From the IMG/VR virus record IMGVR_UViG_3300042938_002732, positions 31,363-95,362 of that record: a stretch of 64,000 bases of DNA. One strand, given 5' to 3'. A program made the position numbers and the translations under genes. The notes below the pieces were generated by a model, which saw only the letters and a program-made list of their open reading frames with translations, searched no databases and was not told the origin of the DNA. Below are positions 44,495 through 59,131 of this stretch, piece by piece; within the stretch, counting starts at the first letter, position 1, and each line of letters opens with the position of its first letter. The DNA comes from a virus.

Positions 44495-46051
44495 TTATTC
44501 AATAGGTTGGAGTGTGTGTGGATCGACCTTGCCCCAGGATTTGGGGGGCAGGACTTCGAGATCGGCGGCTGTCTTCTCCTCGTTGATGGGGAATCCGATG
44601 AGCGTGGAGATTTCGCGATAGGTTGTTTCGAACTTATCGGCATCCGAGACGCGGCTGGGTTTCGGGATGAGGCCGAGTAAGACTTTCTTCACCGAGGGCC
44701 AGAGGGCTTGTTCGCGTGTGCCGTCTTCTCCGGTGAGGCAGAATGACCAATTCTTGTAGCCGTAGGTCTCTTTCTGTGAGTCATCTCGGATTGGGAAGGC
44801 CGTGGGGTTGTGGATGTAGCCCCACAGATTCTCGTTCACGGGGGTGCTTTGCATGGACTCGGCCTTGAAGGGGAGGCCGAAGACGGCAATGAGGTGGTCG
44901 ATGGGGGTGGTGAGCTTGTCGAGCGTGGCATCCTTGAGCGCGGTTTCGAGCTTGTCGCGCACGATGACCCAGCGTTTGCCTTGGAGCATACTGGCCTTGG
45001 CCTTCTGTTTGTCTTCGGGGCTGGCAGGGGCGTCGTCTTGGTTGCGCTCCTTCTTTTCCGATAGGAGGTAGCGAAGGGTGAATTTGCTATTTTCAAAGAT
45101 GAGCACCTTCTTGGCTCCCTCTTCCGGCGCGTCGGAGAAGCGTTGGTTCCATTTCTCCCACTCGCGTTGGTAGTGAGTGCCTTGGATCGTTACGGAGTCG
45201 CGGGCTATGACCGGGAGTTGTTCGCCCTCGCAGAGTCGGGTGTATTCCGCGTCGATGTGCAGTTGGCGGCGCGCCATGAAGCAAGCGGTGTTCATGCAGC
45301 GTCCGCAGTCTTCTTTTGCCGAGAAGTCGAAGAGGGACTTCTGCTTGGAGGAGTCGCAGGCGCAGCCGGGGCCGCAACCTTCCACGAAGGTGCAGGGATC
45401 ATTGAGCCACTCGCTGTTGGCGAGCGAGGCGAGGTATGGCGAGAGGCGATCTTCCAAGTCCTTGCGCGATGTCGCGAGGCGGATGCGGTTGGGGAAGTTC
45501 TCGTCTGCGTGTGGCAGGTTCGGCAGCGAGGCGAGGAGTTCCATCATCTCCGCGCTGAAGTGGTGCAACTCTCCCTTTGGCCCCCATGCTTTCAGGAGAC
45601 TCTCTGGCAGCGTGGCGAGTTGGTAGCGGCGGGATGTCCACTTTTCCGATTTGCCAAGGGCTGCGGCGAGGTGCTTGATGCCCTTCTCTCCGCGATCGAT
45701 GAGACGCTTGAGCAGGAGTGCCTCGGCGTAGGGATCGGGGTCGAGGCGCTGCAGGTTCTCGGTGAGGATCGTCTCTTCGAAGGTGTCGTCATCGTATTCC
45801 CGCACGATGGCTTTGAGCGCCTTCATTTCCGCTGCCATAGCGGCGGTGTAGCGGCGTGCGCCAGCGGCGATTTCGTAGTGCCCTTTTTTCTCGGGGTGTG
45901 GCCGGACGAGGATCGGGGTTTTCTGTTCCGCCTTGAGGGACTTCGCGAGTTCCTTGATGGAGGGTTCCGTCGGCTTGGGTTGCCGTGTATTCTGCGTGCT
46001 GATGTGGAGTTTTGCCAGCGGGATGAGCTGGACTTGTTCTGTTGTTGTCAT
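44495..46051 (-). CDS. ParB-like protein of PRTRC type
   Basis: A 518-residue protein. The ParB N-terminal CTPase/nuclease-like domain is at 8-110: PLAKLHISTQNTRQP, the HYEIAAGARRYTAAMA box (Arg66-Arg67) and ETILTENLQRLDPDPYAEA. An HTH-like KHLAAALGKSEKWTSRRYQL follows (127-147). A cysteine cluster at Cys220, 226, 230, 232, 249, 252 and 257 suggests a zinc or Fe-S site, as in the PRTRC ParB group. The long C-terminal half is unique. With ThiF, JAMM, E2 and Ub-like genes nearby it completes the PRTRC signature. Confidence 0.8.
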   Translation of the reverse strand: MTTTEQVQLIPLAKLHISTQNTRQPKPTEPSIKELAKSLKAEQKTPILVRPHPEKKGHYEIAAGARRYTAAMAAEMKALKAIVREYDDDTFEETILTENLQRLDPDPYAEALLLKRLIDRGEKGIKHLAAALGKSEKWTSRRYQLATLPESLLKAWGPKGELHHFSAEMMELLASLPNLPHADENFPNRIRLATSRKDLEDRLSPYLASLANSEWLNDPCTFVEGCGPGCACDSSKQKSLFDFSAKEDCGRCMNTACFMARRQLHIDAEYTRLCEGEQLPVIARDSVTIQGTHYQREWEKWNQRFSDAPEEGAKKVLIFENSKFTLRYLLSEKKERNQDDAPASPEDKQKAKASMLQGKRWVIVRDKLETALKDATLDKLTTPIDHLIAVFGLPFKAESMQSTPVNENLWGYIHNPTAFPIRDDSQKETYGYKNWSFCLTGEDGTREQALWPSVKKVLLGLIPKPSRVSDADKFETTYREISTLIGFPINEEKTAADLEVLPPKSWGKVDPHTLQPIE

Positions 46052-46077
46052 TGGGTTTGTTTGGTTTTGGGTTGGTA

Positions 46078-46104
46078 TGAAAAAGCCCGCCGTGAGGCGG
46101 GCTT
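46078..46104 (-). terminator. Terminator between 46133-47026 and the ParB-like gene
   Basis: Stem AAGCCCGCC / GGCGGGCTT with a four-base loop; on the minus strand it is followed by TTTTTCAT. It lies about 30 bases before the ParB-like start, so either partial readthrough or a promoter in the remaining 27 bases must serve that gene. Confidence 0.85.
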
Positions 46105-46132
46105 CGGTGATTGGTTGTGATGGGTGGGGGTG

Positions 46133-47026
46133 TTAGTAGAACCAGTCATCAGTCGAGAGTTTCATGATCTCGATCTTGGTGGATGGGATTGTGGTTGGCT
46201 TGTCTTCCTCCAAGTCATTGTCTTGGAGAAACTTTGTTACTATGCCTCGTAGTTTTGTGGGTAGTTTGGTCATCTCTTCGCCCCAGCCCGATTCTATGTA
46301 GTATTTTGTCTTGCCATTTGTGATGGAGTAGTGGTCAAGGTTGTCTCTGTTCCAGTAGAAGCTCGCTTCGTCGTCGATGCCTTTGACATATTCATCAAAT
46401 CCCTGCCCCGTGAAGGGGAACATCATCGGGTCGCGATCCACATAGGCTTCGCTGCCCTCCACGATGCTGCCCATCTTGATGCCAGCGCACTCGGCTAGCG
46501 TTTTTGCTTCGTCTGATTCGTAGTAAACTTCACGATAAGAGGGTTCCTCAATGCGGTGTAGGGTAATACATACCTGCTTGACGCCTCGGCCCATGCCCAG
46601 TTCAGGTTGTCGCTCGGGGTGAAGTAGTAGCGTGTATAGATTTGTGGTGTCTCCGATCGTGTTGCTTACTCCATTGAGTCGGTCTTTCTTGAGAAAGTTC
46701 TCGATTGTTCGGCGATAAGCGTCGAGGGTTTTGCCAATCTTGTCCTCACGGCGGGGTGATCCGTCCGCGTGAAATCCAAGTAAGCTCAATGCTTTGGGGG
46801 CTTGTTCGTTCTCGTGGTCAAATAAGGATTCTTCAACCGAGGCGTGAAGTTTCTTGTCTTTGATACGCACTGAGACTTGCAGCGTGGTGCTGCGCTTCGG
46901 CGTTTCTTCCACAAGATACACGATCCATGGCCCGCATCCGGTAGATTTGTAGAGACCCCTGCCTGCTCTGTAGGCGTTGTCTCCGCCGACATGGGACATG
47001 AAATCTTTAAGGTTTGTGATGTTCAT
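46133..47026 (-). CDS. Hypothetical protein
   Basis: A 297-residue protein starting at the ATG at 47026; a longer reading overlaps the ligase gene and is rejected. Mixed alpha/beta, with a first domain containing GCGPWIVYLVEETPKRSTTL and a C-terminal half rich in aromatic and acidic residues. It ends before a strong terminator, so it is the last gene of a transcription unit. No family recognised. Confidence 0.55.
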   Translation of the reverse strand: MNITNLKDFMSHVGGDNAYRAGRGLYKSTGCGPWIVYLVEETPKRSTTLQVSVRIKDKKLHASVEESLFDHENEQAPKALSLLGFHADGSPRREDKIGKTLDAYRRTIENFLKKDRLNGVSNTIGDTTNLYTLLLHPERQPELGMGRGVKQVCITLHRIEEPSYREVYYESDEAKTLAECAGIKMGSIVEGSEAYVDRDPMMFPFTGQGFDEYVKGIDDEASFYWNRDNLDHYSITNGKTKYYIESGWGEEMTKLPTKLRGIVTKFLQDNDLEEDKPTTIPSTKIEIMKLSTDDWFY

Positions 47027-47037
47027 TTTGCTAAGGG

Positions 47038-47646
47038 TTAAAAATCCCACCTGTGTTTGAGCCAGTGGGGGCTTTCTTGGTTCGGTGAGCGGAGTTGGCG
47101 CGGGTATGGGGAGTCGGTGCGCTTGGCCACGAAGCCCTCGAAGACCTCGGCGCTCCAGAGTTTGTTGCACGTTTGTAGTGTCTCCCATATCTCGTTAAGG
47201 CCTTCGCTTTCGCGGTGCGAAGGTAATAGCATGAGTCGGTTGTTGGGGAGGGATGCGGATTCTGAATAACCGATTTCCCATGTTCTGCTATGCAAGCGAT
47301 TGTAAATGTTCTGGCGGCGTTCGTCGTAGGTCGCCTTGTCGGGAGCGAGGTAGTCGAGGATGACGAGGCTGCCGCGCCCGAGGGCGTGGCGGCGCTCCAG
47401 AGCTTCGCAGTCGAGCCATTCCATTTCGGGCGGCAGGTCGGCGGTGCGGATCGCTTCCAGCACAGCGGCAAACTCCTTTTCTATCGAGAGGCGCTTACCT
47501 TGCCGGTTCCACATTTCGCCTGTGGGTGCGTGGACGACGGCCCGCCAGCCATTGACTTTGGGTTCGTAGGCCCACAGGCCGCGCTTGAGGCGATCCGGTT
47601 TGAATGGGCCGCCATTGATAGGACGGAGAGGATAGGATGGGATCAT
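47038..47646 (-). CDS. ATP-dependent ligase-fold nucleotidyltransferase
   Basis: A 202-residue protein with the order of covalent nucleotidyltransferase motifs: motif I EPKVNGWRAVVH (Lys30, KxNG), motif III-like EMEWLDCEALERRH, motif IV AEVFEGFVAKR, and a motif V position SPHWLKHRW near the end. It has only the catalytic domain, with no visible OB domain, as in minimal DNA or RNA ligases. It may seal nicks in phage DNA or repair RNA; the substrate cannot be told from sequence. Confidence 0.8.
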   Translation of the reverse strand: MIPSYPLRPINGGPFKPDRLKRGLWAYEPKVNGWRAVVHAPTGEMWNRQGKRLSIEKEFAAVLEAIRTADLPPEMEWLDCEALERRHALGRGSLVILDYLAPDKATYDERRQNIYNRLHSRTWEIGYSESASLPNNRLMLLPSHRESEGLNEIWETLQTCNKLWSAEVFEGFVAKRTDSPYPRQLRSPNQESPHWLKHRWDF

Positions 47647-47654
47647 GGAGAGTT

Positions 47655-48062
47655 TTACTTAATAATCAGAGCTAAGTGCTCTATGAGTTTTTCTTTCGCT
47701 AATTCGAGGGGGACTGGACACGCTCCGAAGATGCTGCGGTTTTCAACAGACACTCTGAATGTCCCGTCTTCTTTAGCGTGGATGCCGAGACCTGTGTTTC
47801 CCCTATGCCACTGCCAGAACTCCACATGGTCAGATAAATCCTTGTTGAAATACATGGATATGTGATCTCTCACAAGGGGACGATCCCTGCCGTTGCCGTA
47901 GCTTTTTGCGGGTAAGTCCAAGACATCCTTCACTATCTCTCGGAGAGGAGTGAAGGTGCGGATGCGGGCTTCTTGATCCGCGTTCTCCTTGGCTTTATTT
48001 AAGTCCGCTTCGGCTTGGATTGCGTTCTGCTTTGCTTTGATAAGCTCTAATGTTGTATTCAT
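47655..48062 (-). CDS. Hypothetical protein
   Basis: A 135-residue protein. Residues 1-45 form an Ala/Glu/Lys helix (IKAKQNAIQAEADLNKAKEN); the rest looks compact (RPLVRDHISMYFNKDL, EFWQWHRGNTGLGIHA). Its start overlaps the preceding gene's end by 68 bases. Not recognised. Confidence 0.5.
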   Translation of the reverse strand: MNTTLELIKAKQNAIQAEADLNKAKENADQEARIRTFTPLREIVKDVLDLPAKSYGNGRDRPLVRDHISMYFNKDLSDHVEFWQWHRGNTGLGIHAKEDGTFRVSVENRSIFGACPVPLELAKEKLIEHLALIIK

Positions 48063-48258
48063 TTACTGGTTGGATGTTGTGTTTCATTTCTTTGAGGAGG
48101 GCGCGTGTCTGCTGCGCCCAAAGGTAGGTCGAATCGTTCGCCCCGAATTGGTCGCGGAGCTTTTGGAGGGTGTCGCCGTCTGTGATGAGCGTGTCGGCAT
48201 CAATCAAGAGTTCGGTGATGGACTGGAGCGTTTCGATGGGGAGTGAGAATCGAGTCAT
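47995..48258 (-). CDS. Hypothetical small helical protein
   Basis: An 87-residue protein starting at the ATG at 48258, directly after the stop of the previous gene. It is helical (ETLQSITELLIDADTLITDG). The overlap of 68 bases with the following gene is unusual for this operon and could mean an upstream start codon in the neighbour is not used. Confidence 0.45.
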   Translation of the reverse strand: MTRFSLPIETLQSITELLIDADTLITDGDTLQKLRDQFGANDSTYLWAQQTRALLKEMKHNIQPVNEYNIRAYQSKAERNPSRSGLK

Positions 48259-48259
48259 T

Positions 48260-48721
48260 TTATGCGGCTTGAGCGAGGTGTTGAGCGATGGTGAAGACTC
48301 GGTGGCGACCGCAGCCACGGCGCATGAGCGCCAGGCCGTTGTGTTTCCGGTTGAGTTGGCGCTCGCAGAGCAGGCCGAAGCGACTCATCGAGGAGTAGCT
48401 ATCGGCATTTTCTGAGGTGAGCCATGCCCGGAATAAACCAAGCTTTACAGCCACGGCCCGTATTTCCGGGCTTTGCCACTCGCGGGTGGCGTCTTGTCCG
48501 TATAGCTCTAAGAGCATGGTTCGGAAGTCGCTTGTCTCCGAGTCGATCGGGATCGGGCCTTCCATCGAGGGTTCGTTGTCGTATTGGATTTGCAGGAGAC
48601 GAATGCCATGAAATATGGCATTCGCCTTGGAGACCTTGCATTGGCCCTGCACAAGCTCGCGCAGGGTGGAGACGATGATCTCGTTGATCTCCTCAGTTGT
48701 TGATGGGTTGTCTGTATCCAT
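48260..48721 (-). CDS. Hypothetical protein
   Basis: A 153-residue mixed alpha-helical protein. The C-terminal part is basic with RRGCGRHRVFTIAQHLAQAA. No family recognised. A CTCTGTG-type short repeat lies just upstream of its start. Confidence 0.5.
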   Translation of the reverse strand: MDTDNPSTTEEINEIIVSTLRELVQGQCKVSKANAIFHGIRLLQIQYDNEPSMEGPIPIDSETSDFRTMLLELYGQDATREWQSPEIRAVAVKLGLFRAWLTSENADSYSSMSRFGLLCERQLNRKHNGLALMRRGCGRHRVFTIAQHLAQAA

Positions 48722-48727
48722 GCTGAG

Positions 48728-48764
48728 TCCTCTCCGTGCTCTCTGTGTCCTCTGTGGTTAATTT
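48728..48764 (-). repeat. CTCTGTGTCCTCTGTGG short dispersed repeat, copy 1
   Basis: The core CTCTGTGTCCTCTGTGG is shared in a 28-base identical block with copy 2 at 50521-50552, and in degenerate, inverted form with 59219-59248. This type of repeat (read as '-HRGHREHGE-') is familiar from many bacterial chromosomes. Confidence 0.7.
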
Positions 48765-49429
48765 CATTTCTCCTTCCTCCCCTTGGTCTTGACCATCGCG
48801 ATGATCGGGCAGGCGGCATCGACGGCCATGTTCTCCTCGATCGTGAGGGCGGTGTGGCGGGCGGTGTGGAAGTCGGGTGTGGGCTTGATGACCGCTTTGG
48901 CGCTGAGGGCTTCGGGGCAGTTGTGGCTGGCGAAGAGGTTTTGGATCTCGCCGATGAGTTCCTCGGCGCGGTCGGCGGGGATTTTGTCGCCGTCGATCTT
49001 GAGTTCGAAGCTCTGGCGAAAGAATTGGGCGGTGAGTTCAGGGCCGAGAGCCTCGATCAAAGGGTATTCGTCCGTGAGGGTCGAGTAGCGGGAGGAGAAG
49101 GTGACGAGCACTTTCTCATCCGGTTTCTCACCCTTGATTTCCACGGAGCTGGGGATTTCGTGCTTGCCGTGGAGGTGTTGGAAGTAAAACTCTTGCGACC
49201 TGGCTCGGAGTTCATGCTTCTTGAGCTTGAGGCTGCCTTCGATGGTTTCAAATTCGCGTGTCTCCGAGATGATCTCGGAAGCGAGTTTGGCGACATCGCC
49301 GGACGGGTCTGGCAGCAGAGGGTAGTCTGTGCCCTTCTTCTCGGTCTTGGTGGCGATGCCTCCAAGGTTGATTTTCTTGATTCCCGCTGCGGGAGCGGCG
49401 GCTGGTTTGGCTTTTGTGGCTGTTGGCAT
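48764..49429 (-). CDS. Hypothetical protein, possible ssDNA-related
   Basis: A 221-residue protein. An Ala/Pro/Lys-rich N-terminal 25 residues precede a mainly helical and beta-mixed body (ISETREFETIEGSLKLKKHE, EIKGEKPDEKVLVTFSSRYS). The size, abundance of charged residues and place among replication genes leave many options. I could not assign it to a PRTRC E or F family by eye. Confidence 0.5.
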   Translation of the reverse strand: MPTATKAKPAAAPAAGIKKINLGGIATKTEKKGTDYPLLPDPSGDVAKLASEIISETREFETIEGSLKLKKHELRARSQEFYFQHLHGKHEIPSSVEIKGEKPDEKVLVTFSSRYSTLTDEYPLIEALGPELTAQFFRQSFELKIDGDKIPADRAEELIGEIQNLFASHNCPEALSAKAVIKPTPDFHTARHTALTIEENMAVDAACPIIAMVKTKGRKEK

Positions 49430-49451
49430 GGTTTGGGTTTTTGGGTTGGGG

Positions 49452-49733
49452 TTAAAGTGAGGCGGTTTCGAGCATTTTATTTTGGGTGAGGTAGTCTAAG
49501 AGGCATTCAGCGTCCTCTTCGGTAAGGATTTTGTCCTCATACCTGGCGAGGTCTATGTTCGTGTCGGGGTAAATGAGGCCGTCAGCTTCCTCGCGGGTGA
49601 GTGTGAGGGTATCCTCATCATCCAGATGAACAGCGAGCAAAAGTCTTTCCAGCTTGCCGTTACGCCAGTCTTCTTCCGGCAGGGAGGCCATAAGGTGGGC
49701 GGCGGCGATGGTGGTGTAGGTGGTAGGTTTCAT
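49452..49733 (-). CDS. Hypothetical acidic protein
   Basis: A 93-residue acidic protein coupled by a four-base overlap to the following start. Helical, with LTREEADGLI and LTEEDAECLLDYL. Not recognised. Confidence 0.5.
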   Translation of the reverse strand: MKPTTYTTIAAAHLMASLPEEDWRNGKLERLLLAVHLDDEDTLTLTREEADGLIYPDTNIDLARYEDKILTEEDAECLLDYLTQNKMLETASL

Positions 49734-50041
49734 AAAGCGAGGTGCTCGATCAGCGTGATATCGAGTATTGTGAGTTGAGTTTGGTCTGCATCCGTTTCTG
49801 CATCATCATCATTCAAAAACATGGATGATCCTGAGACTTTCACGCTTTGGTTTTTCCCCTCGCTGAATTTTAGCGAATACTCCAGCCCTTCGTCTTCCCA
49901 GCTCAGATAAAGAAATTCATTGTCTTCGCTGTCTTTTAATTCCGAGAGTCTTGGATATACTAATACGGAATCGTCGATAACGACTGCCGTTGTGTATCTT
50001 TCAAGTATTTCGTAAGCTCCTTTAAGTGATATGGTTTTCAT
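49730..50041 (-). CDS. Hypothetical acidic protein, paralogue of 40358-40699
   Basis: A 103-residue protein; start at the ATG at 50041. Beginning MKTISLKGAYEILERYTTAV is similar to that of the gene at 40358-40699. The rest is strongly acidic and beta-rich. The presence of two copies in distant parts of the leftward region suggests a shared small-protein family with related roles. Confidence 0.5.
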   Translation of the reverse strand: MKTISLKGAYEILERYTTAVVIDDSVLVYPRLSELKDSEDNEFLYLSWEDEGLEYSLKFSEGKNQSVKVSGSSMFLNDDDAETDADQTQLTILDITLIEHLAL

Positions 50042-50091
50042 TTTTGTGGTGTAAGGCGCAGGCTTTTGATTGGGTGGGTGGACTTCGTAGA

Positions 50092-50268
50092 TCATGGATT
50101 TTGTAGGCTGACCCTCACGACATCTTGCTCGTATTTTTCGGGCACATCGAACTCATGCCCGATGTTAAATGTCTCATTTGCTTCCTCGATTGCGGCTTCT
50201 CGCGACTCGGCTTCGATGGTGAAAGTTTTTATGATTGTGGCTTTTATGGTGACTTCGTAGGCTTTCAT
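50092..50268 (-). CDS. Small hypothetical protein
   Basis: A 58-residue protein starting at the ATG at 50268. MKAYEVTIKATIIKTFTIEA is a beta-hairpin-like beginning, followed by a helix with AESREAAIEEANETF. Reminiscent of small DUF-type sensor domains seen in phage early regions. Not recognised. Confidence 0.5.
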   Translation of the reverse strand: MKAYEVTIKATIIKTFTIEAESREAAIEEANETFNIGHEFDVPEKYEQDVVRVSLQNP

Positions 50269-50270
50269 TT

Positions 50271-50510
50271 TTAGGGATTTATAATAAAGTCGCCATAGAA
50301 GATCCCGTCGTGTTCGATGAGGTCGTCTTTCCAAAAAACATCTAAGATGCACTCCGAATTGAGGTATACTATTAAATGTTGCCCATAAGTTACTTGAACT
50401 TGGTCGCACTCGATGGTCTTGTCTTCTGGTTTCCAGTCGTCGATGAAATGAGGGCTATCCTCATTCCATGCGTCTTTCGTTTTTGCTCCGTTGAATAAAC
50501 ATAGTTTCAT
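50271..50510 (-). CDS. Small hypothetical protein
   Basis: A 79-residue acidic protein with a beta-rich C-terminal half (LIVYLNSECILDVFWKDDLI). It is two bases away from the next gene. The spacer upstream holds a short CTCTGTG repeat. Not recognised. Confidence 0.45.
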   Translation of the reverse strand: MKLCLFNGAKTKDAWNEDSPHFIDDWKPEDKTIECDQVQVTYGQHLIVYLNSECILDVFWKDDLIEHDGIFYGDFIINP

Positions 50511-50520
50511 GGCGTATTCC

Positions 50521-50552
50521 TCTGTGCTCTCTGTGTCCTCTGTGGTTAATTT
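50521..50552 (-). repeat. CTCTGTGTCCTCTGTGG short dispersed repeat, copy 2
   Basis: Same 28-base block as at 48736-48763, again just downstream of one gene and upstream of the next, in the same orientation. Confidence 0.7.
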
Positions 50553-50929: not shown

Positions 50930-50946
50930 GTTGTTTGTTCTATGAA

Positions 50947-50963
50947 AGTCTTATCATAAGACT
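50947..50963. promoter_or_regulatory. Palindromic operator copy 1
   Basis: Sequence AGTCTTATCATAAGACT, a perfect 8+1+8 palindrome. It sits between a terminator and the DUF2958 gene, where a promoter is expected. On the minus strand TATGAT can serve as a -10 box. Confidence 0.75.
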
Positions 50964-50996
50964 AAAGGCCGCAACGCTTTCGCGCTGCGACCTTTT
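50964..50996 (-). terminator. Terminator of the 51021-58838 leftward unit
   Basis: The stem AAAGGTCGCAGCGC / GCGTTGCGGCCTTT with loop GAAA (minus strand) is fully paired only when G.U pairs are allowed, and these exist only in the minus-strand RNA. That shows it works in the leftward direction. It ends right at palindrome copy 1. Confidence 0.8.
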
Positions 50997-51020
50997 GGTT
51001 TGTCCCAAATTTGGAAGTGG

Positions 51021-51949: not shown

Positions 51950-52372
51950 CTAAATTCTGAACCAACCCCACAATGCTCCGTCGTTTTTGTGCGCTCCGAA
52001 ATAGAAACCCTCTGGAGAGTGCTCGTCCAGAATGTCTTTGAGAGATTCCAGCAGCGAGTCAGCGGCCTCCGAGTGCCACCACTTCGAGGAGCGGCCTTCG
52101 TCTTGGACATAGGCAGGGATCGGGCCGAAGGATGAGGCCATAAACCCCTCGTAGTGAGCCGGAGCGAACTCCGATACGGCGTCAAGAAAGCAGGGGATGA
52201 GGTCTTGTGGGTGTGTCGTGCCGCCTATGAGCGGGCCGGTGTATGGTGGTATTTCTCTGATCTCTTTGAAGTCGATTTTTTGTCCTGTGCCTTCGCACTC
52301 GGGGCAATTGTCTCTGGCGGTTCCAAGCCTGCAATGGCAGGGTTCTCCGGTTTTAGGCTGGTATGGGTTCAT
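51950..52372 (-). CDS. Hypothetical protein with Cys cluster
   Basis: A 140-residue protein. The N-terminus has CHC and CPEC (GEPCHCRLGTARDNCPECEG), a likely zinc site. The rest is acidic with many Pro and aromatic residues and ends GALWGWFRI. It overlaps the sliding clamp end by 20 bases. Not recognised; a DnaJ-type zinc motif is a rough comparison. Confidence 0.55.
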   Translation of the reverse strand: MNPYQPKTGEPCHCRLGTARDNCPECEGTGQKIDFKEIREIPPYTGPLIGGTTHPQDLIPCFLDAVSEFAPAHYEGFMASSFGPIPAYVQDEGRSSKWWHSEAADSLLESLKDILDEHSPEGFYFGAHKNDGALWGWFRI

Positions 52373-53426
52373 GGTGTCGTAGTTGGATGATGTGTAGGTT
52401 TTTGCGGAATCCTGTTATGCGGATGGTGTAGGAATCGGCATCGCGCTGGATCGTGTCGCCTCCATTTTCGAGCGCGTCGATGAGGTAGCGTGGCTCGACG
52501 CGGAATGGCGTGGGGCGTCCAGTGGTTATGGCCTTGTCGCGGATGAGGGTGTTCTTGGTTTGCAGGGTTATCGAGTCCCCTTCGGGAATAATCGCTATAT
52601 TTTCGGGTTTTTCTGTTTTTATGAGTTTCCGCAAGGCGTTGAGTGTGGTGTCGCTGGCGATTTGCAGGCGATTTTCGGACGGCTCGGGGATGATGCCGAC
52701 CCAATTCGGGTATTTTGTGGCCAAGGCGATGGATGTGATGCGTGTTATGACATCCTCCTTGGTTGAGACGAGGTGGATATGGCTTGCATTAAAGGAAATG
52801 CTCGCCCCCTCTTCCATAAGGGCGGCAATCGGCTGGGGAATGCTGATTCCTGCTGGCTCAGGGCAGTGGGAGGAGACTTGCTCCATGTGCAGCCTTTGGC
52901 CGTCGCATCCTACGAGGGAGTTGCCTTGCCAGAACACGCCTTCTATAGCTGGACGCAGGGCTTTTTTCTCTGCCACGCATTTGAAGCAACGCTTTACGGC
53001 GCTCGCGTCGAGTTCGCAGCTATCGTGATCTGCCTGGAAGGGGATCGGGTCTGGAAATTCGAGGTCTTGCGACTCCCATGGCACATCGGAGAGGGTGTTG
53101 CCGATCTGGATTTGAATGGACTCGGCGGTGATCGTCACATTGCTGTCTTTTTCCGCGCTCACGGCGCAGTTCAGCAGGGTGGCTGCGGGGATGAGGAATG
53201 TCTCTGGCTCTATCGGTTTGGCAAGTGCCTTGGCGAGCTGGCCGATCGGTTGTGTGCGGGGAATGCCGATCTCGATCTCGGTTTCCAAGTTGGTCGCGCG
53301 CAGGCGCGTTCCCGACCAGTCCGAGGTGGCGTGAATACACGCCAGCCCGGGGTTTACTGGCTTGGATGGGATGATTTTCGCGAGCTTGCGGCAAGCGGCG
53401 AGGAGGATGGGCTGTGGGATTTGCAT
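52353..53426 (-). CDS. Sliding clamp (DNA polymerase III beta-like)
   Basis: A 357-residue protein; start at the ATG at 53426, just past the stop of the preceding gene. Beta-clamp order: an N-terminal domain with PVNPGLACIHATSDWSGTRL and RATNLETEIEIGIP, a middle domain with the clamp-typical LRPAIEGVFWQGNSLVGCDG and QRLHMEQV, and a third domain with NLHIIQLRHHEPIPA (a DnaN-type end). The clamp tethers DNA polymerase to DNA; no polymerase is in the window. It is unusual for a clamp to lie in a ubiquitin-like cassette. Confidence 0.8.
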   Translation of the reverse strand: MQIPQPILLAACRKLAKIIPSKPVNPGLACIHATSDWSGTRLRATNLETEIEIGIPRTQPIGQLAKALAKPIEPETFLIPAATLLNCAVSAEKDSNVTITAESIQIQIGNTLSDVPWESQDLEFPDPIPFQADHDSCELDASAVKRCFKCVAEKKALRPAIEGVFWQGNSLVGCDGQRLHMEQVSSHCPEPAGISIPQPIAALMEEGASISFNASHIHLVSTKEDVITRITSIALATKYPNWVGIIPEPSENRLQIASDTTLNALRKLIKTEKPENIAIIPEGDSITLQTKNTLIRDKAITTGRPTPFRVEPRYLIDALENGGDTIQRDADSYTIRITGFRKNLHIIQLRHHEPIPA

Positions 53427-53427
53427 A

Positions 53428-53634
53428 TTATCGAGGAAGTTTGGGGCCGACTCCGACAATCAACTTTTGCTCAAAGTCGAAGGCAGCGGCGGAGGGGTAG
53501 GTGGTGGGTATGTCGAAGTCTTCAAACATCAGTTCAAGCTCGGAACGAGCTTTTGCGTGTTTGTCGCTGAGGCCGATGCAATACTCGATGAGTTGGAGGA
53601 CTTCTTGGTTTGTCCAGTTGTTGCGTTTGATCAT
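53428..53634 (-). CDS. Small hypothetical protein
   Basis: A 68-residue protein with NNWTNQEVLQLIEYCIGLSD as a possible SANT/Myb-type or helical start, and an acidic second half. It starts at a four-base overlap with the upstream gene and its stop lies two bases before the clamp ATG. Not recognised. Confidence 0.5.
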   Translation of the reverse strand: MIKRNNWTNQEVLQLIEYCIGLSDKHAKARSELELMFEDFDIPTTYPSAAAFDFEQKLIVGVGPKLPR

Positions 53635-54002
53635 GTTTTTCGGGATGGTAGTGTTGTGGGCAGGTCGTGAATGTGGGCAAGCCGCCGCTCAATGTGGCGG
53701 CTAATGAATTGCCATGAGGCAATTACAGGTTCGAATGATGATTCAATATTTCCAATGTCATCATTGTAAACGCAATAAACATTGTATTTCCATGCTTTTC
53801 GGCTGCCTATTATTTTAGTTTCTTCAACTTGGATTTCAACAAACCCATCAGTTGATCGGACGATCTCATTCTCTCCGTCGTTTGTGATTTCAAAGCACAT
53901 CTCAGGTCGAAAGGCGTTGACCCAATTTTGGCCTAAGATTTTGCTGTAAGTTTCTACAAGCGCATCATAAGCAGCACTTATTGCTTCGTCGTGGGACTTC
54001 AT
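53631..54002 (-). CDS. Hypothetical protein
   Basis: A 123-residue mixed alpha/beta protein: N-terminal helix (DEAISAAYDALVETYSKILG), a beta-rich middle (FVEIQVEETKIIGSRKAWKY) and a basic C-terminal end. AT-rich compared with its neighbours. Not recognised. Confidence 0.5.
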   Translation of the reverse strand: MKSHDEAISAAYDALVETYSKILGQNWVNAFRPEMCFEITNDGENEIVRSTDGFVEIQVEETKIIGSRKAWKYNVYCVYNDDIGNIESSFEPVIASWQFISRHIERRLAHIHDLPTTLPSRKT

Positions 54003-54277
54003 TTGTTTCGAGGGAGATATTCAAAATTGCGTTCAACTCCATCTACCGCGCTACTGCGGTAGAGCGCCGCGCAAATGCCGTGTTTCTTGAGGAAATCAAG
54101 CAACCATTTAGCGTTTAATTTGTCGGAGGAAGTATCGTAGTCGAGACGGATACTTCTTAAAGGTTCGTTATCCTTTTCCCCTGACCTTGGATGCTCCGCA
54201 TAGAGATGAAGCGTTCTTTGGTTGTTGTATTTGTTGGCTTTATTTTCAAGCTCAACGAGGTGTTGAATTATGCTCAT
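53999..54277 (-). CDS. Hypothetical small protein
   Basis: A 92-residue basic protein. Helical start (HLVELENKANKYNNQRTLHL) and a C-terminal alpha/beta part (NAKWLLDFLKKHGICAALYR). Overlaps the following gene by four bases. AT-rich. Not recognised. Confidence 0.5.
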   Translation of the reverse strand: MSIIQHLVELENKANKYNNQRTLHLYAEHPRSGEKDNEPLRSIRLDYDTSSDKLNAKWLLDFLKKHGICAALYRSSAVDGVERNFEYLPRNK

Positions 54278-54287
54278 AAAAAAAGTG

Positions 54288-54512
54288 TCATTTTAGGTCG
54301 ATTGAGCAAAGTCTTACGGCAGGCAGTGTTTCACCTTCTTCCTTTGTCACCGGCAACAGGTCTTCCTTGCTGCATGAGGTGCCCCACCCCGAGTGCCACC
54401 GCACCCTTGGGTTCAGCGGGTCGTGTTTGCCTCGGTAGTGCACCACCACCCCGTGCGTGATCGCTTCGGTGGGGTGGATGGCTTTTACCCTGTCGCCGGG
54501 GGTTGTGATCAT
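54288..54512 (-). CDS. Hypothetical small beta-barrel-like protein
   Basis: A 74-residue protein with GDRVKAIHPTEAITHGVVVH and VRWHSGWGTSCSKEDLLPV, a pattern of short strands as in KOW or SH3-type barrels. Likely a nucleic-acid or protein-binding module, but not assigned. Confidence 0.5.
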   Translation of the reverse strand: MITTPGDRVKAIHPTEAITHGVVVHYRGKHDPLNPRVRWHSGWGTSCSKEDLLPVTKEEGETLPAVRLCSIDLK

Positions 54513-54697
54513 GTCTTCTTGGCCTTGCGGCGGGCGCGCTTCGGGGTCTCTGGTGTGGCGGGGAGTTCCAGAGTGCGTGGTGGGAGGGTGGATTTGAATG
54601 GCTCTGTGGCGAGTATGACTTCCACAGCGAGGTTGGCGGCACAGATTGCCGCCATGCGGAGCAGGCGCTCCTGGTCTTGTTGGTTTATGTATATCAT
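54509..54697 (-). CDS. Small hypothetical protein with basic tail
   Basis: A 62-residue protein. A helical N-terminal half (QDQERLLRMAAICAANLAVE) is followed by a Pro/Thr-rich stretch and a basic end (ETPKRARRKAKKT). Four-base overlaps on both sides link it to the JAMM gene upstream. Possible DNA-binding tail. Not recognised. Confidence 0.5.
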   Translation of the reverse strand: MIYINQQDQERLLRMAAICAANLAVEVILATEPFKSTLPPRTLELPATPETPKRARRKAKKT

Positions 54698-55773
54698 GTT
54701 AGTTGCATTAAGATTTCATCAAATCCCATTCCTGCATCATTGCAGAGGCCAAGGGTCTCTTCGGCGATGGCTGTTTCCTCTGGGGACAAGTTAGCGCCCA
54801 TGTGTGAGAGGTTTATGATGCCGGTGAGAGTGGCGATTGATATGCGCTCGCGCAGCATGAGCGCATCTATGTAGCACACGGCCATGTCCAGCTCGTGGTC
54901 TCCCATTCCGTAGTCATCTCGCTCGGGCATGGCGAGCAGGTGGGCGGGGGTGGTCTCTTTGGCGAAAGCGGTGCGGGGCACCCATTCTTTTTCGTTTTCC
55001 AAGCCGTTGTAGCCTCGGTAGTCACGAGTGGGCGTGGTAGCTACTGGCTTGATGGCCTCTTTGATGAGGTTTTCCGCCCAGCCTGGGGGGAATTGGAGTC
55101 GATCCTTGGGCACGGGCGTGCAGAGTTGGTATTTCACGATGTCCTCGCGGATACTTTCCGGCAGGGGCATAGGGAGTGGCGGTGCGTGGAACCAGTCGGA
55201 GAGCACGGCGGTGTAGTAGGCATGGCTGGCCTTGGAGGCCACGGAGCCATCTTCAGCAAGTGTGCCTGGGATCGTGAGAGAGACGCGGGCGTGGATGGTG
55301 TGGGCGGGGCTGTTGATGTTGCCGAGGGTGATGTGGATGCCCATCTCGGTCTCATCGGCGGAGTCTGTGCCGCTTTGGAAGGCTCCGGTGGAGCAGTGGT
55401 GGTGCGCTGTGCCGAACTTGATCCAGTTTCCGCCTGCCATCTGCTCGTTGAGTTGGCGCTCGTAGTCGGGGTTGTCGGAGAGTTCCTTGGCGGTCATGCC
55501 TGTGCCGTATTTCTGCGGGAAGGCGTGGGCTTTGAACTCGCCTGTGTCGGTATTAAGCATCAGTCGCACTTGGGTTTCCGACTTGGTTTCCTCGTAGCTC
55601 CATTGGAAGAAGGACACGATCTGCTGCCAGACGGCATCGGGAATCTTGGCCCCTGTCCATCGCATAGACGGCGAGGCTTCGGTGATCGTGACTTTGGACG
55701 GCACATGGCCGATAAAGCCATTGCCGAGATTGCGGAGTTCGTAGAGGGACTTGCTGTGGGATATGAGTTTCAT
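54694..55773 (-). CDS. JAMM/JAB metalloprotease, PRTRC system protein A type
   Basis: A 359-residue protein. The JAMM zinc signature is complete: His124-x-His126, seven residues, Ser134-x-x-Asp137 (HHHCSTGAFQSGTD). A Glu upstream in WSYEETKSETQVRLML is the likely general base. JAMM proteases cut ubiquitin-like tails from substrates. After the domain (about residue 170) comes a 190-residue extension, much longer than in a minimal JAB protein. It lies between the ThiF/E2/Ub-like genes and the clamp in one leftward unit. Confidence 0.8.
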   Translation of the reverse strand: MKLISHSKSLYELRNLGNGFIGHVPSKVTITEASPSMRWTGAKIPDAVWQQIVSFFQWSYEETKSETQVRLMLNTDTGEFKAHAFPQKYGTGMTAKELSDNPDYERQLNEQMAGGNWIKFGTAHHHCSTGAFQSGTDSADETEMGIHITLGNINSPAHTIHARVSLTIPGTLAEDGSVASKASHAYYTAVLSDWFHAPPLPMPLPESIREDIVKYQLCTPVPKDRLQFPPGWAENLIKEAIKPVATTPTRDYRGYNGLENEKEWVPRTAFAKETTPAHLLAMPERDDYGMGDHELDMAVCYIDALMLRERISIATLTGIINLSHMGANLSPEETAIAEETLGLCNDAGMGFDEILMQLT

Positions 55774-56015
55774 TTGTGGTGAGTGAGGTTGGGTCTGCGG
55801 TGTGGGCTTGGTGTGCGTGGCGGGGGTCTGCGGTATTGTGTGGGCGGTGTGGGTGGCGGGGTTGGCGCGCGGTCTTCGCTATCGGGCGGCGGTGGGCTGC
55901 TGCGCGATTGCCACGCAGCAACAAGCCAGATCACCCCTATGGCGAGCAGGAGCGGGGCGGCTCCTATGAAGAACGAGGCGATGAAGAAGAGGCCGAAGAC
56001 GGCGAAGTTTTTCAT
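55770..56015 (-). CDS. Small membrane protein with Pro-rich tail
   Basis: An 81-residue protein. Two membrane spans at about 4-20 (FAVFGLFFIASFFIGAA) and 22-36 (LLLAIGVIWLVAAW), then a Pro/Arg-rich tail of 45 residues. It starts and ends with ATGA overlaps. A membrane anchor in the middle of the Ub-like cassette is noteworthy; it could localise a complex to the membrane. Confidence 0.6.
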   Translation of the reverse strand: MKNFAVFGLFFIASFFIGAAPLLLAIGVIWLVAAWQSRSSPPPPDSEDRAPTPPPTPPTQYRRPPPRTPSPHRRPNLTHHK

Positions 56016-56581
56016 TCCTCGTCTTCGTCTGCTCCGTCCCGCTGGCTGATCAGCCTTTCGGCTTCTTCCATGAGGTCGTCGAGGTCGCTTTCGATGCAGA
56101 AATCCGTATCGTCTCCGCTTGTGTCGAACTCATAGTCGGAGCCATCCTCATCTTCAGTGTATTCAGAGATTTCGTTGGCAACATAGTCGCGCACCTCATC
56201 CATTCCCTGTTCCCAGATGGAGAGCGGGACTTCTATGCGGCCTTGCTTTACCCAGTCTCGGGTGTATCTGTTGTATCCTGTCTCTTTGGCATCCACTTCC
56301 ACAAACTCGCCCCGGCGGATTTCGTCTGCTTCGGGGTTGTGGGGGGGGGTCCAAGCTTTTTCCGGAGCGGGTATCGGCTTGAGGGGCTTGAGGGTCGCGA
56401 GCCAGGCTTCGATCTGCTCAAAGTTGGTCGCGCCATCCGGCACGGGGCAGTTGAACTTGATGCGCAGGAGCGCGCGGGTGTAGGGAGACATGGGCGCAAG
56501 CAGGACGAGATTTTTCAAGTCATGCGAGGGCCACTTGTAGGGTAGCGCCTCGGGGCGCAGGGTGTCGGTATTTGTTTCCAT
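56012..56581 (-). CDS. Hypothetical protein, duplicated, copy 1
   Basis: A 189-residue acidic protein, tandem paralogue of 56608-57162. The N-terminal 60 residues are almost identical (PSHDLKNLVLLAPMSPYTRA, FEQIEAWLATLKP), the middle differs, and the acidic tails (DYEFDTSGDDTDF) are alike in style. A palindromic operator lies 11 bases upstream of its ATG, between the copies. No family recognised. Confidence 0.6.
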   Translation of the reverse strand: METNTDTLRPEALPYKWPSHDLKNLVLLAPMSPYTRALLRIKFNCPVPDGATNFEQIEAWLATLKPLKPIPAPEKAWTPPHNPEADEIRRGEFVEVDAKETGYNRYTRDWVKQGRIEVPLSIWEQGMDEVRDYVANEISEYTEDEDGSDYEFDTSGDDTDFCIESDLDDLMEEAERLISQRDGADEDEE

Positions 56582-56592
56582 AAATTATTGAA

Positions 56593-56609
56593 AGTCTTAT
56601 TGTAAGACT
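56593..56609. promoter_or_regulatory. Palindromic operator copy 3
   Basis: AGTCTTATTGTAAGACT, two perfect 7-bp half-sites around TTG. It sits between the two tandem copies and its last bases cover the stop codon of copy 2. On the minus strand TACAAT makes a good -10 box. Confidence 0.75.
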
Positions 56610-57162
56610 AATCTTCCGTTTCGTCGTTGGTTCCGTCGCGTTCGGCAACCATGTCTTCGGCTTGCTCCATGAGGTCGTCGAGGTCGTCTTCGATGTCGAA
56701 GTCGTTCAAGATTGTTTCTGAGTAGTCGTAGTCGTTATAGCTATCGTCGGCATCTTGATCTCCGATTACATCTCTCACATAATCCCTGACGGCTCTCTTG
56801 CCTTGCTCGAAGACGGAAAGGGGCACTCGGATTTCGTCCCGCTTTTCGTAGGAACGATTGTAGACGCAGTATCCTGTCTCTACGCCAGTCACTAAAATGA
56901 ATTCCCCGAGGTCAACCTCGTTGCGGCGTCTCGGAGGCGCTGGCGGCAGCGGCGGTGGCGTGGGCGGCTTGAGGGTCGCGAGCCAGGCTTCGATCTGCTC
57001 AAAGTTGGTCGCGCCATCCGGCACGGGGCAGTTGAACTTGATGCGCAGGAGCGCGCGGGTGTAGGGAGACATGGGCGCAAGCAAGACGAGATTTTTCAAG
57101 TCATGCGAGGGCCAGTGGTAGGGCGGTGCCTCGGGGCGAGGGGCTTCGATGTTTGTTTCCAT
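56608..57162 (-). CDS. Hypothetical protein, duplicated, copy 2
   Basis: A 184-residue acidic protein; the ATG at 57162 (METNIEAPR) matches the start of copy 1. The first 60 residues are nearly the same as in copy 1 in protein and DNA; the DNA identity covers roughly 56400-56530 against 56980-57110. The middle contains PPTPPPLPPAPPRRRNEVD, a proline hinge absent from copy 1. It follows ThiF with four bases between. Possibly a substrate or scaffold of the cassette; this is speculation. Confidence 0.6.
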   Translation of the reverse strand: METNIEAPRPEAPPYHWPSHDLKNLVLLAPMSPYTRALLRIKFNCPVPDGATNFEQIEAWLATLKPPTPPPLPPAPPRRRNEVDLGEFILVTGVETGYCVYNRSYEKRDEIRVPLSVFEQGKRAVRDYVRDVIGDQDADDSYNDYDYSETILNDFDIEDDLDDLMEQAEDMVAERDGTNDETED

Positions 57163-57166
57163 AGGG

Positions 57167-57871
57167 TTAGGCAGCGTCGGCATAGCGGGTGGTCTCGGTG
57201 GAGGTGGCGGTGTTGGAGAAACCCAGCGGCCAGAACGGGCGGGTTATTTGCGGGTCGAGCTTGGGTTTTTCGATGAAGACGAAGTTCCACAGCAGGAGCA
57301 AGTGGGCGGATGCCATGTGGTTGGCGATAGGGGTTTGTGGCACTTCGCGCAGACGGGCCTCGGAGTTGCAGCCGCTGGCATGGACGGGCGAGCCGCTGTC
57401 GTCGGTGAGCATCTCGGGCCAGCGCACGCGCGGGTCGCGGGGCGTGCCTTTGTCGGAGGGGGAATACCACCAAGACTCTGCGCCGATTGTCGAGTTCGCG
57501 GCAGAGAGCACGGTGACTCTCGCAGCGGCATCCGCCGCATCGAGTGCGTGCAGACGGGCCAAGTGGTTATCGGCCATTATGATGATGCTGTCGCCATCCT
57601 TGACGCGGAAGGCGCTGTCGATGTAGAAGGTGGATGTCTTTAATCTCCCATACCAGGGGAACTGAGCTGCCAGCGCGGTCGCCTTGTAGGCGTCGATGTG
57701 TTCGCGGTCGAAGTTCTGCCTGCGCAGGTTGTGCTCTTCGAGTCGGTCGCCATCGTGCAGGATGACGCGGTGGCTGCGGATATCGTCGTCCTGACAATAC
57801 CGGAGCGTGCGGAGGAATGGCGGCAGGAAGTAGCTGGCTACGCCGCCGCAGCCGATGATGTGGGTCGTCAT
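57167..57871 (-). CDS. ThiF/E1-like adenylating protein of PRTRC type
   Basis: A 234-residue protein. The nucleotide-binding loop is IIGCGGVASY (residues 5-14), and the E1 signature is LHDGDRLEEHNLRRQNF (Asp40/Asp42, Asn48, Arg50, Arg51). A second conserved part SIIIMADNHLARLHAL is the adenylation floor. One Cys in HASGCNSEARLRE is a candidate catalytic thiol. E1-like enzymes adenylate the C-terminus of a ubiquitin-like protein. It lies next to E2-like and Ub-like genes. Confidence 0.85.
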   Translation of the reverse strand: MTTHIIGCGGVASYFLPPFLRTLRYCQDDDIRSHRVILHDGDRLEEHNLRRQNFDREHIDAYKATALAAQFPWYGRLKTSTFYIDSAFRVKDGDSIIIMADNHLARLHALDAADAAARVTVLSAANSTIGAESWWYSPSDKGTPRDPRVRWPEMLTDDSGSPVHASGCNSEARLREVPQTPIANHMASAHLLLLWNFVFIEKPKLDPQITRPFWPLGFSNTATSTETTRYADAA

Positions 57872-58110
57872 AGGTTTTGGATGGCTGAGAGGATTTCTTG
57901 GTTTTCGTTGTGCTTCTTTTTCATCTGCTCTTTGTGGTAGTCCCTCTTGTGGAGGTAGTCGGCAGTATCCATAAACTTCCGTAGTGCGCGCACGCTGGCC
58001 TTGTCTGTGAGGTGCGCTCGCAGGGTTTCGTGGAGAAATTTCTGGTCTGCTGAGTCCTCATCCAAGTCAGGAGTCTGCAGTTGGCATTTCAGCTTGTCGT
58101 AGAGGTTCAT
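57868..58110 (-). CDS. Small helical protein between E1-like and E2-like genes
   Basis: An 80-residue charged helical protein (KASVRALRKFMDTADYLHKR, EQMKKKHNENQEIL). It overlaps both flanking genes by four bases, so it is made together with them. It is not a PRTRC component I recognise; an adaptor within the conjugation machinery is possible. Confidence 0.6.
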   Translation of the reverse strand: MNLYDKLKCQLQTPDLDEDSADQKFLHETLRAHLTDKASVRALRKFMDTADYLHKRDYHKEQMKKKHNENQEILSAIQNL

Positions 58111-58838
58111 ATAGCGATAGATTTGAAGAATTTGTCAAAGATGTCGTTGGATACCGAACGGGCGCTGTCGCGGTAGCGGCGCTCCTCCCAGCCTTGGTAG
58201 TCGGGGGTGAGTTCCTCGCCAGGAGTCCAGAGGAGCAGCGGGATGGGGTTCGTGACTGGGTGTAGGTCGTTGTTGGAATTGGCGGATTGAATCCAATCCA
58301 CAGCGGCTTCGAAGGCTTCCAGTATCGGCAGTGTCTGGACGCGGGTGTGCTCGTCGCGCCAGGCATTGCCCATGCAGATCCGGCCATCGTCGTAGGTATT
58401 TGAGAAAGGCGGGCGGTAGATGTTTTCGCCCACGGCGTGCCAGCACATATATGGCTCCCGCTGCATGGTGAGTCGGCCATCCACATCGAGGTCGAATCTG
58501 GCGAAGAACCACATCTCGTGCCCTGGCGGCGGGGTAAAGTCGAGGCTCTGGTGGATCGACATGCTGTTGTCGTAGAAGACGGCATGCACCTTGGCCGTGC
58601 CGTCGGGAAGGGTGATGGGGGCGAAGTGTGTTTTGAGGCGCACGCTCTCCAGCTTGCGGCCAAGCACAAGCTGCTGGGATGAGATTTTGGCTGTGTATCC
58701 CAGCGAGGGGAAATCGCGGATCACCACCGGCTCGCTCCGCGCGATGTTGCGGAGCATCTCGTTGGCGTTGGCGATGGGCGTGAGGTCGGCGCGGCGGAGT
58801 TGGCCGTCTGTGGCGTCGATGAGGTAGAATGAGTTCAT
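58107..58838 (-). CDS. E2-like protein, PRTRC system protein B type
   Basis: A 243-residue protein of the prokaryotic E2 family D (PRTRC B). The E2-like core has HEMWFFARFDLDVDGR, PPFSNTYDDGRICMGN with the candidate catalytic Cys155 in the GRIC position, and a C-terminal NPIPLLLWTPGEEL. The N-terminal 70 residues form a separate small domain. Its ATG abuts palindrome copy 4, so a leaderless mRNA is likely. It would carry a ubiquitin-like protein from E1 to substrate. Confidence 0.85.
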   Translation of the reverse strand: MNSFYLIDATDGQLRRADLTPIANANEMLRNIARSEPVVIRDFPSLGYTAKISSQQLVLGRKLESVRLKTHFAPITLPDGTAKVHAVFYDNSMSIHQSLDFTPPPGHEMWFFARFDLDVDGRLTMQREPYMCWHAVGENIYRPPFSNTYDDGRICMGNAWRDEHTRVQTLPILEAFEAAVDWIQSANSNNDLHPVTNPIPLLLWTPGEELTPDYQGWEERRYRDSARSVSNDIFDKFFKSIAI

Positions 58839-58855
58839 AGTCTTATGATAAGGAT
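58839..58855. promoter_or_regulatory. Palindromic operator copy 4, imperfect
   Basis: AGTCTTATGATAAGGAT: the left half-site is perfect and the right has GGAT for GACT. It touches the ATG of the E2-like gene; TATCAT on the minus strand lies six bases before that ATG. Confidence 0.6.
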
Positions 58856-58871
58856 GAAGTAAGGTGGGACG

Positions 58872-58899
58872 AGTCGCCGCAGTGGGGGCTGCGGCGACT
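58872..58899 (-). terminator. Hairpin after the Ub-like gene
   Basis: A perfect 11-bp stem AGTCGCCGCAG / CTGCGGCGACT with a six-base loop, seven bases after the stop of the ubiquitin-like gene. There is no U-run, so it may be a partial terminator or an RNA-stability element. Confidence 0.55.
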
Positions 58900-58906
58900 T
58901 GTCGGA

Positions 58907-59131
58907 TCAGGCGGCCTTCGAGTGCGCCAGCTTCTGGATGAGGAGGGTGTCTCCTGCATACAGCGTGGTGTTCGATTCCGCCTTGGCGCCGGAGATGAGA
59001 CCTTCGACATTGCTGGTGTCGAAGTTCAGGACTGCGGCGTAGTTAGCGTTGGACAGGATTTGTCCAACCGTCGTGCCTTCCAGCACATCCACTGCGAGGG
59101 TGTTGAGACCCGATTTGAGATTTACGAGCAT
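58907..59131 (-). CDS. Ubiquitin-like protein, PRTRC system protein C type
   Basis: A 74-residue protein with a perfect AAAGGAAA ribosome site eight bases before the ATG at 59131. MLVNLKSGLNTLAVDVLEGT, TVGQILSNANYAAVLNFDTS and YAGDTLLIQKLAH give a beta-grasp, as in Prok_Ub/PRTRC C. It lacks a C-terminal Gly-Gly; it ends LAHSKAA, so conjugation by the usual chemistry would require processing (by the JAMM protein?) or it acts in another way. A longer reading upstream is rejected. Confidence 0.8.
   Translation of the reverse strand: MLVNLKSGLNTLAVDVLEGTTVGQILSNANYAAVLNFDTSNVEGLISGAKAESNTTLYAGDTLLIQKLAHSKAA

Follow-up and report, generated by a model that had tools for sequence, protein, structure and literature searches.

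We analysed a 64,000-nucleotide stretch of viral DNA, hereafter the window (bases 31363-95362 of IMG/VR virus record IMGVR_UViG_3300042938_002732, which totals 95,362 bases), and in it a single leftward operon, running from 59131 to 54509, that encodes a predicted ubiquitin-like (Ub-like) cassette. Its nine genes specify a Ub-like protein, an E2-like protein, a ThiF/E1-like protein (ThiF or E1 below), a JAMM metalloprotease, and five small proteins, in the leftward order Ub-E2-g80-E1-g191(-g189)-TM-JAMM-g62, where TM denotes a probable membrane protein. Because five start and stop codons overlap as ATGA (E2/g80, g80/ThiF, g189/TM, TM/JAMM, and JAMM/g62) and only a few bases separate the end of ThiF from the start of g191, one translationally coupled transcript is expected. 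The record comes from a tailed phage, as judged from a portal and a major head protein that are both encoded outside the window; within the window are genes for tail proteins, the large terminase (37557-39482), a primase, and a helicase. A search for tRNA genes found none, and no integrase turned up among the proteins searched. We consider it likely that the operon is a phage-encoded, self-contained, and reversible system that modifies proteins with the Ub-like protein.

A preliminary description of this DNA had proposed a PRTRC-type set of five proteins: Ub-like, E2-like with the cysteine in GRIC, ThiF/E1-like, JAMM with an intact HxH-x7-SxxD motif, and ParB-like. All five are open frames at the positions given there. 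In searches with hidden Markov models (HMMs), the E2-like, ThiF, JAMM, and ParB-like proteins matched their families and the Ub-like protein did not. For profile-profile comparisons, alignments of four phage sequences were set against alignments of plasmid PRTRC proteins. The E2-like protein matched the HMMs of Prok-E2_D (E 3e-4) and PRTRC_B (E 0.014) over the GRIC cysteine and the PRTRC_B profile around the same motif (E 8e-8, probability 94.5), which by sequence bears out its assignment as a putative E2; P144, N147, C155, and G157 are invariant in the sister phages described below. ThiF matched the HMMs of PRTRC_ThiF (7.8e-4) and ThiF (0.0042), and the PRTRC_ThiF profile with an E of 1.9e-13 over 218 columns, in line with the predicted adenylating function; its invariant residues are G7, G9, and G10 (G7xG9G10), D40, N48, R51, Q52, K63, D101, and C168. 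In the JAMM protein, the motif H124-x-H126-x7-S134-x2-D137 is indeed intact and, along with E66, invariant in the sister phages. This protein matched PRTRC_A by HMM (0.0018) and by profile-profile comparison (E 1.8e-6), in which its Glu, HxH, and SxxD fell on the corresponding PRTRC_A positions.

The Ub-like protein gave no meaningful family match in Pfam, NCBIfam, PHROGs, or PADLOC, and none to the Prok_Ub or PRTRC_C HMMs. Its assignment is borne out by structure prediction: the best AlphaFold2 model is a beta-grasp (mean predicted local distance difference test [pLDDT] 88, predicted template modelling score 0.75) in which residues 71-74 form a loose, disordered C-terminal tail; the other four models were of far lower confidence (47-58). 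With the best model, the top Foldseek match was Caldiarchaeum ubiquitin (6fnn; E 1.5e-4, TM 0.72), and other matches included a Bacteroides fragilis ubiquitin-like protein, human ubiquitin, NEDD8, and SUMO.

Searches of IMG/VR yielded five further contigs with genes of the window lineage. At four sister loci (L004/L005, L006, L007, and L160) we read the whole operon; in the remaining contig (L019), the Ub match alone was examined. The gene order was the same in all four, which excludes chance as its origin. Identity to the window was highest for the Ub-like protein (83-95%), followed by ThiF (72-93%), with 51-84% for E2 and 55-77% for JAMM. The Ub-like protein ends in LAHSKA plus a final A or V in 5 of 5 sequences (window, L005, L006, L007, and L160); that is, position 73 is an invariant alanine and position 74 is A or V. 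No relative of the window-lineage ThiF, as a host or prophage copy, was present among the 11.3 million genome contigs scanned, and the window Ub showed no similarity to GenBank phages. The carriers of the operon are a group of uncultured tailed phages. A reading of the genes as relics, or as small unrelated proteins that happen to resemble a Ub cascade, would agree with the weakness of the individual HMM matches and with an E2 fold that is unconfirmed, but the catalytic residues are invariant, the gene order is preserved across diverged phages, and three independent profile matches fall on three members of one known cassette; we regard this explanation as very improbable.

Table 1. Features of the operon and its surroundings (positions are those of the window).
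Feature	Position	Strand	Evidence and remarks
Ub-like protein, 74 residues	58907..59131	-	AlphaFold2 beta-grasp, Foldseek, conservation; ends ...LAHSKAA, no terminal Gly
E2-like protein	58107..58838	-	Prok-E2_D, PRTRC_B profile; candidate catalytic Cys155 in PPFSNTYDDGRICMG
g80, small protein between E2 and E1	57868..58110	-	ATGA overlap on each side
ThiF/E1-like adenylating protein, 234 residues	57167..57871	-	PRTRC_ThiF profile; candidate thioester Cys168
g191, first tandem paralog	56608..57162	-	likely start 57162; longest frame from 57183
g189, second tandem paralog	56012..56581	-	within-genome homogenisation over the first 62 codons
TM, small protein with hydrophobic N-terminus, probably membrane	55770..56015	-	ATGA overlaps with g189 and JAMM
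JAMM/JAB metalloprotease	54694..55773	-	PRTRC_A profile, invariant motif; E66, H124, H126, S134, D137
g62, small conserved protein ending the operon	54509..54697	-	63-81% identity in sister phages; ATGA overlap with JAMM
Stable RNA hairpin, Ub-E2 gap	58868..58903	-	-26 kcal/mol, z -7.5
Palindrome AGTCTTA-N3-TAAGACT, exact	59562..59578		upstream of g65
Palindrome, 1 mismatch	59389..59405		upstream of Ub
Palindrome, 2 mismatches	58839..58855		immediately before E2 start
Palindrome, exact	56593..56609		between g191 and g189
Sliding clamp, DnaN-like	52353..53426	-	TIGR00663 (dnaN) 6.5e-11; neighbour, not core
ParB-like protein with PRTRC-ParB-type Cys cluster	44495..46051	-	TIGR03734 1.1e-23; neighbour, not core

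To place the system, we compared it with PRTRC, which is class 6d of prokaryotic Ub-like systems. In the definition of Iyer et al. 2006 (PMC1779556), members of this class have a Ub-like protein whose terminal Gly is highly conserved, an E2 in which a conserved His lies downstream of the Cys, a JAB protein whose N-terminal domain bears a conserved Arg and Trp, an E1, and a helical protein. Judged from sequence profiles, the window system shares ancestry with PRTRC in three of its four proteins (E1, E2, and JAMM), and to this extent the PRTRC label of the preliminary description holds. In the phage JAMM proteins, an R38-W39 pair is invariant, and the alignment with the PRTRC_A profile begins only at residue 52. 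The label fails in other respects. A terminal Gly is missing from the Ub-like protein, and proteins E and F (F being the helical protein) are absent from the window operon. Scores against the PRTRC models were all below the curated TIGRFAM cut-offs (14.7/131, 17.8/102, 18.8/145, and 83.7/279 bits). In the E1 tree, the window clade lies outside the PRTRC ThiF clade (support 98/99), and its long branch (2.32) makes its exact placement unsure. We conclude that the window system, which would function in the manner of PRTRC, is a divergent cousin of it and, by the criteria tested, not a member.

The operon also carries genes additional to the PRTRC set. A g80-sized open reading frame lies between E2 and E1 in L006, L007, and L160 as well. 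The tandem paralogs g191 and g189 are present as two copies in four loci, with a single one found in L160; the N-terminal half of these proteins is nearly invariant, and the C-terminal halves diverge. Over the first 62 codons, third positions of the window's g191 and g189 are 90% identical to each other and about 52% identical to those of the L006 copies, pointing to homogenisation of the N-terminal part within each genome. Searches of Pfam, NCBIfam (g191 only), PHROGs, and PADLOC returned nothing usable for the two paralogs. We rejected g191/g189 and g80 as candidates for PRTRC E or F, since hhalign gave probabilities of at most 0.6. The N-terminus of the small membrane protein is conserved in the sister phages.

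Two elements suggest that the module has dedicated regulation. A very stable RNA hairpin occupies the gap between Ub and E2 in the window and in all four sister loci that were folded (L005, L006, L007, and L160; z -6.5 to -7.9). Its sequence differs between two sublineages, and the window copy has no clear T-run. Plausibly, the hairpin is an attenuator or a stabiliser, which may raise the amount of Ub over that of the enzymes. The second element is a palindrome, AGTCTTA-N3/4-TAAGACT (17/18 bp), with nine copies in the window, six of them exact, and none in shuffled sequences. In addition to the four copies in Table 1, it starts at 50947, 51933, 61770, 61871, and 62301, so that all window copies fall between 50947 and 62318, the module that holds the operon; the 31 kb before the window contain one more. 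In the sister phage G005 (96,663 bases, syntenic with the window from the structural genes to the cassette), 10 of 11 palindromes lie at 84.7-95.5 kb, around its operon, and clustering is similar in L005, L006, and L160. One exact 18-mer version occurs in only four contigs of IMG/VR, all of them cassette-bearing members of the window lineage. The palindrome would thereby mark the module as one regulon. A scan of the operon for consensus promoters and terminators gave nothing above shuffled sequences.

How might such a cassette work when its Ub-like protein ends in Ala or Val? Plasmid PRTRC_C sequences have an invariant Gly, mostly within KG and sometimes followed by a tail, and many PRTRC C proteins of (pro)phages have long C-terminal tails; the invariant KG together with the tails implies trimming. 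For type II CBASS, where the terminal residue of the conjugated cGAS is Gly or Ala, replacement of Gly by Ala lowers but retains conjugation, while replacement by Val abolishes it (PMC10097602). By analogy, Ala73 could work in conjugation and Val74 would need to be trimmed. Since position 74 varies between A and V and position 73 is A throughout, we propose, with the CBASS precedent, that JAMM takes off one residue and that Ala73 is the residue joined.

From these features, we infer a possible course of reaction. JAMM would remove the variable last residue (A74 or V74) and expose the invariant Ala73. ThiF would then adenylate the carboxylate of Ala73 and may hold the protein as a thioester on Cys168, from which it would pass to Cys155 of E2 and be attached to a lysine of a target protein; JAMM could later strip it from the target again. 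With their fixed N-terminal and variable C-terminal halves, g191 and g189 would be the best candidates for adaptors that choose the target, or for targets themselves, and the small membrane protein may keep JAMM at the membrane. In its fullest form, the proposal is that this lineage has its own glycine-less ubiquitin, matured by a one-residue JAMM trim and conjugated through Ala73, that it is directed by paralogs whose docking half is fixed and whose target half changes, and that the whole is run as a regulon by a phage-specific 17/18-bp palindrome. We offer this full form tentatively, as a possibility that is less probable than the modification system as such.

Several observations weigh against reading the operon as a conjugation system. 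AlphaFold2 prediction of E2, with five sequences, reached a pLDDT of only 48, and Foldseek gave no usable match and was discarded; as this prediction failed, the E2 fold is taken from sequence profiles alone. The downstream His of class 6d is absent from the invariant E2 columns after C155. At 234 residues, the E1 is short, and a separate Cys domain was not seen, which makes Cys168 a guess as the thioester site. The Ub-like protein lacks the Gly that is typical of nearly all conjugated Ub-like proteins, and it has no sequence match to PRTRC_C in hhalign (probability 0.3). Finally, no E3 or substrate was recognised.

The missing Gly also bears on a different chemistry, in which the Ub-like protein is a sulfur carrier that ThiF adenylates and thiocarboxylates for modification of a phage nucleotide or cofactor, with JAMM serving in maturation only. 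Thiamine and molybdopterin synthesis both make use of ThiF-type E1s and beta-grasp proteins, and the terminal Gly that is usual for protein conjugation is absent here. But sulfur carriers normally end in Gly-Gly, and that end is missing from the window protein likewise. Furthermore, the operon has an E2-D-type protein with an invariant Cys, we recognised no gene for a rhodanese or sulfurtransferase there, and Foldseek puts ubiquitin, NEDD8, and SUMO first. A sulfur carrier is in our judgement quite improbable, and we retain protein modification as the likely function.

The preliminary description had placed ParB and a sliding clamp in or among the cassette. The ParB-like protein matched ParB_N (2.3e-13), PRTRC_parB (1.1e-23), and the generic parB model (1.5e-33), and it shares an alignable Cys cluster with PRTRC ParB proteins, which gives substance to the proposed link; the gene is 8.6 kb from the cassette. 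The clamp gene is real by its dnaN match (Table 1). A nucleotidyltransferase of ligase fold, also mentioned there, rests on a weak match (PF01068, E 7e-4). Neighbouring genes, ParB and the clamp included, vary among the sister contigs, whereas the order of the operon stays. In particular, tblastn and HMM searches (at E up to 10) detected neither ParB nor the clamp in G005 or in contig G004, both of which keep the operon. Neither is therefore required for the operon's role, and the claim that they belong to the cassette is not supported; we rejected both as core members.

A related proposal looks for the substrate among the replication proteins of the phage, with the clamp or ParB as first candidates, in the style of PCNA modification. 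The window clamp gene is 1.3 kb from the JAMM gene, and among PRTRC-type plasmids, 12 of 20 encode dnaN, which in 7 of the 12 lies within 10 kb of thiF (plasmids of Pseudomonadota, Bacillota, and Cyanobacteriota: L008, L025, L029, L030, L165, L168, and L169). The P value for this proximity, 2e-5, or 1.6e-4 when one record that was picked after its dnaN had been seen is left out, is optimistic because related plasmid backbones inflate it. Against the proposal, G005 and G004 retain the operon without clamp or ParB, none of 80 PRTRC loci, mostly from Burkholderiales, has a clamp within about 10 kb, and no DnaN match was found in six other phages with related cassettes. We consider the replication machinery an unlikely substrate. 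The clamp as a general PRTRC partner was dropped on the 80 loci; as a lead to a substrate, it stands for plasmids only. On two cyanobacterial plasmids, holA or gamma/tau genes adjoin the dnaN near PRTRC, and a gene of the phosphoadenosine phosphosulfate reductase family recurs near PRTRC on plasmids L013, L161, L162, L167, and L170.

Phage carriage of such cassettes, which had been presented as exceptional, turned out to be common. Burkholderia phage BgVeeders33 (OK665841) has the full PRTRC set, in the order E-C-F-B-A-ThiF, and an IMG/VR scan with the PRTRC ThiF found 41 contigs (L119-L159), with each of E, C, F, B, and A in 38-40 of them; these are mostly complete classical sets. In 32 of the 40 PRTRC contigs tested, the terminase is related to that of BgVeeders33. 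Many C proteins of the 41 contigs have C-terminal tails beyond GTKG. E1 and JAB genes are also present in Salmonella phage Arash, Vibrio phage D69, Bacillus phage KLEB27-3, Acinetobacter phage ME3, and the crAss-like phage cr111_1, several of which have an E2-D-like protein as well. KLEB27-3 encodes a tetra-ubiquitin-like protein (L023:2718-3425) of 4 x 57 residues, each repeat ending in GVKG, next to E2-, JAB-, and E1-like genes; in D69 (L022:6388-7179), three Ub-like repeats ending in TGTKG adjoin E2- and JAB-like genes. The E2-like and ThiF-like genes of Arash (L011:1519-4539) carry a structural-protein annotation. Our literature search found no paper describing PRTRC in phages, but its coverage was partial, with subscription papers and preprints mostly outside it, which makes it weak evidence of absence. 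What is surprising about the window is that its operon is so compact, that the Ub lacks the terminal glycine, that additional genes are present, and that a palindrome is dedicated to the module; carriage by a phage is itself not rare.

Conjugation could serve conflict: the operon might tag host defence proteins, envelope proteins, or the virion proteins of rivals, or its JAMM might strip off what the host's Bil or CBASS has conjugated. This would be a role for the same chemistry and not a different mechanism. Relatives of these proteins act in anti-phage defence (CBASS Cap2/Cap3 and BilABCD), the E1 matches PADLOC E1-E2 models weakly (4e-4), and a membrane protein gene is coupled to JAMM. The E1-E2 matches were all that PADLOC found in the operon, the other genes fitting no defence model, and a full set of E1, E2, and Ub exceeds what a de-conjugase needs. 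We think a role in conflict rather doubtful, although it is the alternative that we would take most seriously.

The role of PRTRC-type systems has been open since 2006, and a nine-gene phage operon narrows what they need and separates them from ParB and the clamp. Phages are easier to grow and edit than megaplasmids, and the cultured carriers BgVeeders33, KLEB27-3, Arash, D69, and ME3 allow direct tests for substrates. A Ub-like protein that is joined through Ala would extend the rules of conjugation, and if phages turn such systems on host defences or rivals, they would be a viral counterpart to Bil and CBASS.

Among known systems, BilABCD and type II CBASS are bacterial conjugation systems that, like the window operon, combine E1, E2, and JAB; both are host defences. 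BilABCD has a two-domain Ub-like BilA, and its E1 is larger and includes a Cys domain, whereas the window has a single 74-residue domain and a 234-residue E1. In type II CBASS, E2 and E1 are fused in Cap2 and the protein conjugated is a nucleotidyltransferase, whereas E1 and E2 are separate genes in the window. Closer in setting are the cassettes of Arash, D69, KLEB27-3, ME3, and cr111_1, which likewise combine E1 and JAB on large tailed phages, but no g191-type genes were recognised in them, and KLEB27-3 and D69 have tandem Ub-like repeats ending in GVKG or GTKG. BgVeeders33 and about 40 related IMG/VR (pro)phages are, like the window phage, tailed phages with a Ub/E2/E1/JAMM cassette; unlike it, BgVeeders33 has a classical PRTRC set with its ThiF inside the PRTRC clade. 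PRTRC (class 6d) itself shares with the window a stand-alone Ub-like protein, an E2-D, a ThiF/E1, and a JAB in one operon on mobile elements, with a ParB that has the same Cys cluster nearby and, on part of the plasmids, a clamp gene near. The window operon differs from it in a Ub-like protein that ends in SKA-A/V instead of KG and in the addition of g80, g191/g189, TM, and g62.

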